Shown: one piece after another, positions 5,766 through 52,552 of the stretch
How positions within the stretch are numbered: position 1 is the first letter of the stretch
Layout: each line of letters opens with the position of its first letter
NCBI GenBank assembly: GCA_900317845.1
Contig: ONII01000013.1
Coordinates: 1-60,146 of the forward strand
Direction: 5' to 3'
From: an uncultured Bacteroidales bacterium
GTDB taxonomy: Bacteria; Bacteroidota; Bacteroidia; Bacteroidales; UBA932
DNA length: 60,146 nucleotides
Made by a program: the position numbers and the translations under genes
Notes under the pieces: generated by a model
Told to the model about the DNA's origin: nothing
The model's database searches: none
What the model saw: the letters and a program-made list of their open reading frames with translations, nothing else

Positions 5766-5945
5766 ATGAAGTCAAAACAACTTATTACCATCCTTGCATG
5801 CATCGTCTCTCTATGCAGTTCCACGATCGTCTCAGCCAACGCCGGTGGTTCAATACCTGTTCCTCCCATCACCCGTAACGAAGCAGTATTGATTCAACAA
5901 GTAACCATCCCCAATGAAATTCATCCTGCCGCGATTGCAAAATAA
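5766..5945 (+). CDS. Short secreted protein, probably truncated
   Basis: From ATG 5766 the product is 59 residues: a signal peptide (MKSKQLITILACIVSLCSS, cleavage after about SANA) and a 35-residue mature part containing GGSIPVPPITRNEAVLIQQ. An upstream extension in the same frame (from 5670) is hydrophobic but lacks a plausible start context. The last codons (HPAAIAK then TAA) lie within the first arm of the inverted-repeat array at 5928, so the original 3' end has probably been replaced. The start of the mature part faintly recalls small secreted DUF3244-type Bacteroidales proteins, but that is weak. I treat it as a remnant. Confidence 0.4.
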   Translation: MKSKQLITILACIVSLCSSTIVSANAGGSIPVPPITRNEAVLIQQVTIPNEIHPAAIAK

Positions 5946-6062
5946 ATACAGCCCATTGCACTCTGGATGCAATCGCGGCAAACATTGGGGACAGAATGGG
6001 CGTTTTGGCGGCCGCGATTGCAAAAAATCGGCACGACGTAGCACTTTAGGCGCAATCGCGGC
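5928..6062. repeat. Alternating inverted 11-bp repeats at 41-42-bp spacing
   Basis: The 11-mer GCCGCGATTGC occurs at 5928 and 6011, and its exact reverse complement GCAATCGCGGC at 5969 and 6052. Start-to-start distances are 41, 42 and 41 bases, so spacers of 30, 31 and 30 bases separate four perfect arms of alternating orientation. The spacers differ, although spacers 1 and 3 both begin AAAA and share GCACT. A 13-base relative, CGCGATTGCAAAA, occurs at 4906 at the end of the truncated acetyltransferase. No known repeat class fits well: the units are too short and alternate, unlike CRISPR. Confidence 0.8.
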
Positions 6063-6110
6063 AAACAGGCAGGCTGCCTGGAGCAGAAATATTACTCTAG
6101 AAATGGCGGG

Positions 6111-6133: not shown

Positions 6134-6172
6134 TAAAGAAAAATACGCCTTCTAGCGTACTAGAAGGCGTAT
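6134..6172 (-). terminator. Intrinsic terminator of tRNA-Leu
   Basis: On the minus strand a perfect 13-bp stem (arms 6143-6155 and 6160-6172, loop of four) is followed by TTTTCTTT. It starts six bases after the tRNA 3' end and ends the tRNA transcript. Confidence 0.9.
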
Positions 6173-6228
6173 CGGGGTGCCTCGGGCGGGAATCGAACCC
6201 GCACGGCCGTTTCGGGCCAAGGGATTTT

Positions 6229-6657
6229 CGTACCACTATGGCTTTCGCCACCATTTCTGTTTGTGGTCTGGACTATTCCTTCACCGTGGAGCCAGGCTCT
6301 TTAGGTGTGTCGTGTCTAGTCTCTGCACCTTCCTCCTTTCAGAGGCTTGGCTCAAGATTGCCATCGGCCTTACCCGTTATGGTTTCCTTGAATTTACGAC
6401 ATTCTACATCTCTCTTTTCAGAGAGTGCACTCAATTGTGCTCTTCCTCGATAATTACTTGTAAGGGCATGGCAATTGGGACACAGAAGTTGAAGATTCTC
6501 TAACCTGTTATCCGTATTCTTGCCATTTAAGTGATGAATCTCTAACGGAATGGGTTTTCCTTGCCATTCTGTTAAGCCGCATACTTCACAATAGTTAATC
6601 CCTGTTGTCTTTTTGTAGCGTTGTCTCTTACAAATAATTATTTCAAAGAACGTGTCT
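6229..6657 (-). ncRNA. Group I self-splicing intron in tRNA-Leu(UAA)
   Basis: The 429-nt insertion begins after U34 of the anticodon and ends with G (6229), the expected omega-G. Conserved group I core elements are readable in order on the minus strand: the Q-like AATCTTGAGCCAAGCC (near 6344-6360), the R-like GTGCAGAGACTAGACAC (near 6312-6328) and the S-like AAGGAATAGTCC (6270-6281). R and S provide the P7 pairing GACTA/TAGTC. A P9-like hairpin follows (near 6232-6256). These resemble the IC3-type introns of tRNA-Leu genes. The P1 guide pairing was not fully traced. An HNH nuclease ORF fills the 5' two-thirds and overlaps the P-Q core. Confidence 0.85.
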
Positions 6658-6677
6658 AAGTCCCTCGTGTCTACCAT
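6339..6677 (-). CDS. HNH endonuclease encoded in the tRNA-Leu intron
   Basis: Protein of 112 residues with a complete HNH zinc-finger nuclease motif: CEVC (about residues 30-33), the catalytic-type EIHHLNGKNTDNRLENL (HH at about 47-48, N in the loop), and CPNCH (about 66-70). The role expected from family knowledge is homing: cutting intronless tRNA-Leu alleles so that repair copies the intron. The only in-frame ATG lies upstream of the splice site, inside the tRNA D arm (MVDTRDL is encoded by exon 1), so translation would require unspliced precursor. The last codons (GNLEPSL) encode intron core element Q, so protein and ribozyme share sequence. Confidence 0.85.
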   Translation of the reverse strand: MVDTRDLDTFFEIIICKRQRYKKTTGINYCEVCGLTEWQGKPIPLEIHHLNGKNTDNRLENLQLLCPNCHALTSNYRGRAQLSALSEKRDVECRKFKETITGKADGNLEPSL

Positions 6678-6705
6678 TCCACCACCAAGGCGTAATGTGG
6701 GAGTG

Positions 6706-6737
6706 CAAAGGTAGTGTTTTTTTGCGGAAGTCCCAAA
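6706..6737 (-). promoter_or_regulatory. Promoter of tRNA-Leu
   Basis: On the minus strand a TTTG -33 element (6734-6737) and a TACCTTTG -7 element (6706-6713) are separated by 20 bases, the Bacteroidota vegetative-sigma arrangement. The tRNA 5' end (6691) is 14 bases past the -7 element. Confidence 0.8.
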
Positions 6738-6801: not shown

Positions 6802-7737
6802 TCATCGGCCTGCGGTCTCCTTGCCGGCGTTGAGCTTTTCCAGGATGCGGGCCACCTGCTCCCGGGGGAGGCTCATGACCCGCGCCAATTGTGGCACGCT
6901 GGTTCTGGTGGTGCGGTACAGATACGGGATAACGCGCACCTTCATGTCCGTGCTGAGCTGGGCGATAGGCGTGTTAAACCACCGGAGGCAGGTTTCCTGG
7001 GCCAGTTTGAAGAATTCCTCGTCCCGCGCCAAAGTATAGGGCTTTTCTTCCAGCATGTACTGCATTTGGGCCGCATTTAAACTGCCGATTGTCTTAAGAA
7101 AGAAGGCCTGGTCTTGTTCAAAGGCCTGTTCCAGATAGAGCGTGTCGCAAAAACTCCCCGGAATGAGCCGCCCGTCTCCGTCCACCATCCAGGAAACCGT
7201 TTTCAAGGAATCCCCGGTATGCATCACGGCCCTTCTTTCCCGCTTGCTCATGAGTTTTACCGGCCGTCCCGTCTCTTTGTCGCCATGAAACATGGCACGA
7301 AAACCGGACCACGGATACGTATGCACTTGACAACCATTGTCCAGTGCATTCCTGGGGATATAGGCCAGCACATTCCGCACATGCCAGTCCGTTTCCAACG
7401 GCAGGCATTTCACATCTACGCCATGCAGTACATGGCTTTCTCCGTAGCGCTTGTGGAACCACATAGCATAGACTTTTTTAAGGTCGCAGGCGTAATTGTC
7501 CACGTGTTCCTGCCTTGCTGCCAGCACGGCAACATGGGCATGATTGGATACCACGCCATAAATAATGACGATGAGATTGTTCCTGCGCGCACTCACGCAG
7601 ATGATTTTGACCATGGCGTCATAGTCGTCATCGTCCCGGCACAGAACATCCATTTCAAGTCCCCTGAGGCAGACATGAAAGGGGTAAACCTTACTGACGG
7701 TCCCGTCTGGCAAGGTTCGAATGGCTATGCGCTGCAT
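6802..7737 (-). CDS. REP-associated tyrosine transposase (RAYT, Y1/HUH family)
   Basis: Protein of 311 residues related to IS200-type single-strand transposases. The HUH metal motif is VVSNHAHVAVL (about residues 62-72). The catalytic-tyrosine helix region follows as LKKVYAMWFHKRYGESHVLHG, then a VLAYIPRNALDNG segment matching the YIHLNP-like region of RAYTs. The C-terminal half is longer than in IS200 TnpA, as usual for RAYTs, and ends with a DNA-binding-like segment (VPQLARVMSLPREQVARIL). No transposon ends flank it, and it appears domesticated. RAYTs are known to mobilise short palindromic REP/REPIN elements. A small gene ends one base upstream and appears translationally coupled. Confidence 0.8.
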   Translation of the reverse strand: MQRIAIRTLPDGTVSKVYPFHVCLRGLEMDVLCRDDDDYDAMVKIICVSARRNNLIVIIYGVVSNHAHVAVLAARQEHVDNYACDLKKVYAMWFHKRYGESHVLHGVDVKCLPLETDWHVRNVLAYIPRNALDNGCQVHTYPWSGFRAMFHGDKETGRPVKLMSKRERRAVMHTGDSLKTVSWMVDGDGRLIPGSFCDTLYLEQAFEQDQAFFLKTIGSLNAAQMQYMLEEKPYTLARDEEFFKLAQETCLRWFNTPIAQLSTDMKVRVIPYLYRTTRTSVPQLARVMSLPREQVARILEKLNAGKETAGR

Positions 7738-52462: not shown

Positions 52463-52478
52463 CGGTCCCAAAATATAT

Positions 52479-52527
52479 GTGGACAGATTTGGATTGCTTG
52501 CAACCACGTTAAAAAATGCTAAAATAA
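52479..52527 (+). ncRNA. Probable SAM-II riboswitch upstream of metK
   Basis: Stem P1 GTGG (52479-52482) / CCAC (52504-52507) encloses AGATTTGG and GCTTGCAA, then GTTAAAAAATGCTAAAA follows. The order (P1 with GATTT and TTGCAA in the loop, then a downstream AAA..GCTAAAA) matches the SAM-II pseudoknot, known from alphaproteobacterial and Bacteroidota methionine and SAM genes. A terminator follows before the metK start. SAM binding would reduce SAM synthetase production. The call is by pattern; the pseudoknot was not modelled. Confidence 0.72.
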
Positions 52528-52552
52528 CATTTCATATCAGTGTTTTGTGTTT

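Follow-up and report, generated by a model that had tools for sequence, protein, structure and literature searches.

A Group I Intron with a Shortened HNH Endonuclease Frame in the tRNA-Leu(UAA) Gene of a Bacteroidales Bacterium

Introduction

In an uncultured Bacteroidales bacterium, the gene for tRNA-Leu(UAA) is interrupted by an intron that harbors an HNH nuclease frame, and this frame begins in the tRNA exon. The locus raises the question of how such an arrangement arose and whether the frame is a working gene or the residue of one. The window, i.e. the whole 60,146-nt stretch of DNA analyzed here, is contig ONII01000013.1 of a draft assembly (GCA_900317845.1; 39 contigs; stated completeness 97.75%). 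An initial annotation found two things unusual, a start codon placed in the tRNA D arm and a frame whose end overlaps the ribozyme core, and it proposed that translation would compete with splicing for a shared RNA. The reading preferred here, to which a probability of roughly 0.85 is assigned, is that of a homing tRNA-Leu intron whose nuclease gene has been eroded by a 296-nt deletion.

Results and Discussion

Identity and Structure of the Intron

The split tRNA-Leu(UAA) gene spans window positions 6691-6178 on the minus strand (Table 1). ARAGORN run without introns found no tRNA in the window; run with introns, it identified Leu(taa), interrupted at position 35 by an intron of 429 nt. The architecture originally described, in which exons join to an 85-nt class II tRNA around an insertion after U34 that ends in G, was reproduced in this way. 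The Rfam group I model RF00028 matched positions 6461-6247 of the minus strand over its full length (1-253 of 253) with 47.9 bits (E 4e-11), 2 bits below its gathering score of 50 bits, and at E 0.001 the window intron was the sole match in the genome.

Covariation was assessed in a core alignment (A2) of 31 cores picked from 48. The initial predicted structure contained 51 pairs, with double changes in 28; one of its hairpins was an artefact and was rejected, and P7 was put in place. In the revised structure, 98.7% of cells pair and double changes occur in 28 of 53 pairs. Shuffled controls averaged 10.4 such pairs and none of 500 reached 28; slid controls gave 8-13. The P7 pairing noted at the outset can form but is invariant, so this part of the core lacks covariation support. 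Likewise, P1 is invariant and without covariation, GAGU facing ACUU in 55 of 55 introns examined, a count in which the GAGU motif had also served to locate the cores. A G faces U34 at the 5' splice site in the same 55 of 55. Together, the covariance-model match, the core covariation and the U.G pair with terminal G confirm the window intron as group I. Given that the GAGU guide comes after the HNH motif, the nuclease gene sits in loop L1.

Table 1. Features of the interrupted tRNA-Leu(UAA) locus, in order of transcription
Feature	Window positions	Strand	Basis
-33-like element TTTG, Bacteroidota-type promoter	6734..6737	-	Sequence
-7-like element TACCTTTG (TAnnTTTG)	6706..6713	-	Sequence
5' exon of tRNA-Leu(UAA), ends U34	6658..6691	-	ARAGORN; intronless relatives join here
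HNH frame, 112 aa + stop, probable endonuclease-gene remnant	6339..6677	-	ORF, Pfam
Group I intron (429 nt) ending in G at 6229	6229..6657	-	RF00028, ARAGORN, R1
Junction of 296-nt deletion relative to L039	6622..6623	-	Alignment; place ambiguous by 2 nt
Ribozyme core P2-P9	6229..6438	-	Model R1 (which includes the window sequence itself), 263.5 bits; covariation
Guide GAGUGC, P1 with 5' exon, 4 bp ACUU/GAGU	6427..6432	-	Sequence, invariant
P7 5' strand GACUA	6317..6321	-	Core alignment, invariant
P7 3' strand UAGUC	6271..6275	-	Core alignment, invariant
3' exon of tRNA-Leu(UAA), A35 to A73	6178..6228	-	ARAGORN intron mode
Terminator-like 13-bp hairpin, then T run, directly past tRNA	6143..6172	-	Sequence

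Distribution among Bacteroidales

The initial annotation knew of no described example in the Bacteroidota. A search for the same insertion showed that it is not rare in the window's family: among 299 genomes taken from this family the core model R1 detected the intron in 42, with 25 of 62 in the genus, within which it is patchy, and in a sample of the order it was detected in 3 of 295, the window counted. Five of the 42 represent a second, lower-scoring lineage (79-96 bits), and G199 holds only a 40-nt fragment. A pattern for the intronless anticodon region matched 209 of the 299 family genomes, an approximate figure, as the pattern requires one D-loop type and with one mismatch can match tRNA-Leu(CAA), as it did in G157 and G283. 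Within the genus the pattern matched 34 genomes, and 3 had neither this pattern nor the intron. Among the 42 intron-bearing genomes the pattern search detected no intronless tRNA-Leu(UAA) copy, its only matches there (G235 and G244, one mismatch each) lying at the genome's own intron 5' junction. In all 14 intronless loci compared, the empty sites abut at the exon borders, in keeping with an invaded tRNA gene.

The 32 R1 loci fetched were the best-scoring rather than a random sample. Both exons were recognised in 28, of which 17 have ORF-less introns (212-231 nt), 9 carry a whole HNH gene and 2 carry remnants, these being the window (429 nt) and L217 (305 nt); the nine intact loci and L217 are records also present in the ORF scan described below. 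Separately, a core match was observed in another family of the order (locus L241 of genome G550, positions 1458-1744), where ARAGORN joins the exons as tRNA-Ile(tat) around a 212-nt intron.

Relationship to Cyanobacterial Introns

The initial annotation left open a mobile invader or a tRNA-Leu intron lineage shared with cyanobacteria. The main rival to the homing intron is vertical descent from an old intron of this kind, with losses and no recent mobility. Its appeal lies in the cyanobacterial introns themselves, which occupy the same gene, are inserted between U34 and A35 and have a homologous core found by the Bacteroidales model. In the phylum to which locus L117 (Gastranaerophilales) belongs, taken here as cyanobacterial, 47 of 146 genomes have the R1 core. 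Thirty loci were read in that phylum; their printed borders make 22 of them Leu(UAA), with the insertion at the window's site, and 8 fMet, some of the 30 bearing other ARAGORN names.

By contrast with this shared site, the two sets differ in form and in position in the core tree. The 22 cyanobacterial Leu copies are 212-300 nt in length, whereas intact introns of the window's lineage measure 705-752 nt and carry the HNH gene in L1. The Leu clade of L117's phylum (100/100) is separate from the window clade (99/98), and the window intron falls outside it; the sister of the window clade is an intron on a viral contig (L119; 94/84), in a tree whose bootstrap had not settled. Other Bacteroidota (Prevotellaceae; L112 with L242) branch at separate points of the tree, a pattern suggestive of repeated intron gain in the phylum.

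A comparison with the closest intact relative, L039 (Bacteroidales UBA2716), bears on the same point. The tRNA gene and intron of the two are identical save for one 296-nt gap, with no mismatch in the 514 nt of tRNA and retained intron, and the 106 nt upstream are identical as well. Beyond this island, 50 mismatches occur in the next 1033 nt upstream and the 3' flanks are unrelated. The island looks like a recent transfer tract; it is seen in a single pair of loci, and part of the identity is accounted for by constraint on the promoter, the tRNA and the core. Taken with the variable presence of the intron inside one genus, these observations make vertical descent without recent mobility unlikely. 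The two origins first envisaged are each borne out in part, as the shared site and the homology to cyanobacterial introns stand.

A tree of the HNH proteins, built quickly with no bootstrap and containing several long branches, placed the 38 Bacteroidales rows on one side of a branch (100) and the Hymenobacter rows likewise (99), with viral intronic rows in two places.

The HNH Frame and Its Intact Relatives

The frame matches the Pfam HNH family (PF01844, E 2.7e-6), as originally assigned, and retains the HNH motif. Its ATG at 6677, in the tRNA D loop, is the sole ATG, GTG or TTG before the motif, and its 3' end extends into the ribozyme core.

A scan with the window ORF gave 237 relatives, of which the 80 best loci were analyzed. 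In 48 of these, tRNA-Leu(UAA) exons flank an intron at the same site, with the HNH gene lying outside the intron in three of the 48 (L076, L080 and L081), and two further loci (L085 and L117) were identified via the core model. Another 23, all Hymenobacter, have the HNH gene between tRNA-Gly(GCC) and an intact tRNA-Leu(UAA), and the R1 core was found in 0 of these 23; the remaining 7 carry no assignment. Intact relatives in the window's lineage have an in-frame ATG inside the intron, mostly at +59 to +63, with L071 (+33) as an exception and additional ATGs in some. The intact Bacteroidales ORFs are under purifying selection, with a median dN/dS of 0.076 from 19 usable of 465 pairs. A model of the L039 protein (mean pLDDT 78, pTM 0.48) comprises three N-terminal helices and an HNH fold; this helical N-terminal domain possibly binds DNA. 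Intron lengths form a series of 725, 641, 623, 607, 451, 429, 322, 317, 305 and 212-243 nt.

Overlap of the HNH frame with the ribozyme core is normal in the family, and the legend of Fig. 2b of Hausner 2014 describes such a layout.

The 296-nt gap removes the usual ATG and the first 89 of the 183 residues of the L039 protein. Correspondingly, the window frame matches positions 93-169 of the protein family phrog_10822, compared with 5-167 for the intact protein, and the window copy does not encode a complete HNH protein with an N-terminal domain and its own start. Because the deletion took the normal start, the odd start codon of the window frame is explained: the ATG in the tRNA is a by-product, the retained frame being continuous with it by chance. 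The D-arm ATG is the only start available, as initially stated, but it is not the design of the family.

The draft state of the assembly and the otherwise complete identity to L039 might suggest an assembly error, the deletion being artificial and the true copy full length. Seven other shortened records (L058, L070, L079, L083, L084, L089 and L105) argue against it, and we consider it less likely even than vertical descent. Somewhat less plausible again is the proposal that the shortened frame encodes a working HNH protein translated from the tRNA exon, with translation and splicing in competition. Consistent with it, the frame is open from the ATG through the HNH motif. However, no other HNH-bearing intron compared depends on an exon ATG; the viral locus L133, which has open exon codons, nevertheless has an ATG at +34 inside the intron; and intact relatives start within the intron, upstream of a domain that the window frame has lost. 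Given that the D-arm ATG is not a family design and that core overlap is normal, competition between translation and splicing is unsupported as a function.

Thus, the window frame is probably a non-functional C-terminal remnant, one that is still open and retains its HNH residues, so that a product is possible. The best reading of the window copy is a recent decay intermediate, i.e. a homing intron caught decaying.

Copy Number and Flanks of the tRNA Gene

The genome gave 53 tRNA-model matches, of which 42 were read (30 loci and 12 fetched additionally, three of the latter, L208-L210, yielding no ARAGORN gene). Nine class II genes were present among the 42, namely four Ser, one Tyr and Leu CAA, UAG, GAG and CAG, and a check for another intact tRNA-Leu(UAA) found none among them. 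The 11 matches left unread comprise the window's own gene and ten of 71-74 nt, which are too short for tRNA-Leu. As no other tRNA-Leu(UAA) was found, splicing is presumably required for reading UUA. The Bacteroidota-type promoter consensus is TTTG / TAnnTTTG, and the TTTG and TACCTTTG ahead of the gene are what we take to be a promoter-like pair. A dead tRNA gene with an inactive intron, at which the broken nuclease gene might hint, is scarcely credible given the absence of another UAA-reading tRNA-Leu among the matches read, the intact exons and core, and the promoter-like and terminator-like signals on either side.

Viral Relatives

Among contigs assigned as viral by IMG/VR, the R1 core was present in 25 of 64 loci tested (80 fetched), three of the 25 at 19-26 bits. 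ARAGORN in intron mode, applied to 21 of the 25, named 15 as Leu(UAA); the other six were named otherwise via a slid border, and five of them fit the ACTT / G-AAAAT site by their printed ends, the sixth being L123, for which the output gave no 5' end. The RF00028 cut-off was reached in 1 of 20 viral loci given (L146, on a 464-kb contig).

Twelve stretches were also taken from 224 GenBank phage records with an HNH relative. One, LR756511.1 from a 595-kb uncultured phage, has the intron (80.5 bits, Leu(taa), 700 nt). Ten have tRNA genes and no core match, and the Dulem virus 42 stretch has neither. Among the ten are Rhodococcus phage Francesca, Vibrio phage D69, Synechococcus phage S-CRM01 and Gordonia phage GodonK, in which the HNH gene lies directly beside tRNA-Leu or another tRNA.

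Some viral loci show further cores. L186, L192, L193 and L119 have two core matches each, close together. The viral contig of L124 holds a second intron (L267, positions 1466-1748), ORF-less and 206 nt long, in tRNA-Arg(tct); it forms a long branch that groups with fMet introns. Outside the viral set, genome G591 (that of L100, labelled Clostridium sp.) has eight core-model matches across several contigs, which may reflect contamination or intron spread.

A Proposed Homing Cycle and Known Systems

The homing reading can be set out as a sequence of steps, in which we infer splicing, cleavage, homing, loss of activity and the fact and direction of transfer from sequence. The intron presumably splices by RNA catalysis with an external G, P1 forming from ACUU and GAGU, and yields the UUA-decoding tRNA. 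Intact members would produce from L1 an HNH homing endonuclease, possibly with a DNA-binding helical N-terminal domain, that cuts intronless tRNA-Leu(UAA) genes near U34/A35; this target is suggested by insertion site and neighborhood. Repair would copy the intron into the cut gene and co-convert the flanks. Once empty targets run out, the nuclease would decay, and in the window the deletion of its start codon and N-terminal region would have abolished activity.

Loci corresponding to several stages were found. The HNH gene stands free next to an intact tRNA-Leu in Hymenobacter and phages and next to an ORF-less intron in L076 and L080; it lies within the intron in intact copies, is eroding in the window and has been lost from ORF-less introns. 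The free-standing copies suggest, by analogy with collaborative homing, a nuclease that was a tRNA-gene specialist before or besides its life in introns. A broader proposal, that a single HNH family specialised on tRNA genes carries tRNA-Leu(UAA) introns back and forth among large phages, Bacteroidota and certain other bacteria, with members in all stages, stands at about even odds.

Four known systems offer comparison. The cyanobacterial tRNA-Leu introns were considered above. Cyanobacterial tRNA-fMet introns, which Bonocora and Shub reportedly described in 2001 with an I-Ssp6803I-type endonuclease, likewise pair an intron in a tRNA gene with an endonuclease directed at the anticodon region (a putative target in the window's lineage), but in another tRNA. 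No HNH motif was seen by eye in the ORFs of the long fMet introns L279, L288, L289 and L292, which are presumably I-Ssp6803I-like. The free-standing HNH genes of phage tRNA arrays (phrog_10822) belong to the same protein family and adjoin tRNA genes, often Leu; they differ in being mostly not intron-encoded, whereas the window member is a truncated intronic copy. In collaborative homing, the free-standing endonuclease F-CphI adjoins the ORF-less psbA intron of cyanophage S-PM2 (PMC6083498, PMC3984707). L076 and L080 are similar in that an intact HNH gene lies just downstream of an ORF-less tRNA-Leu intron; the differences are that the neighbor is here a tRNA gene, the nuclease is HNH and its target is putative.

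If the homing reading is correct, a self-splicing intron interrupts the UUA-reading tRNA gene in an appreciable fraction of one Bacteroidales family, elements of this kind are also present in phages, and tRNA finders run without introns miss such genes, as ARAGORN did in the window. If the broader proposal also holds, HNH-moved tRNA-Leu introns would extend collaborative homing to a tRNA gene, and intron-bearing tRNA genes would be common in phages. Because intact, free-standing, eroding and empty states occur in close relatives, the homing cycle and the way in which composite introns arise are directly testable.

Additional Observations

The downstream HNH copy of L076 (positions 1166-1743) opens on a fragment of the 5' exon (GAGGGACTTAG) and stops within the core, a sign that the interrupted gene was partially duplicated in tandem. 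In the window, two imperfect 57-nt direct repeats, REP-like, lie just downstream of the tRNA at 5927-6067. Each is a palindromic unit with GCCGCGATTGC / GCAATCGCGGC arms; the arms have four exact copies, all within 5927-6067, and a further copy elsewhere in the window carries a mismatch. Upstream of the tRNA, a 311-aa ORF (6802-7737, minus strand) also adjoins the tRNA of L039, at ~95% DNA identity; it has no Pfam match at 1e-3 and in our impression resembles a small transposase. A SAM-II riboswitch occupies 52473-52532 on the plus strand (62 bits).
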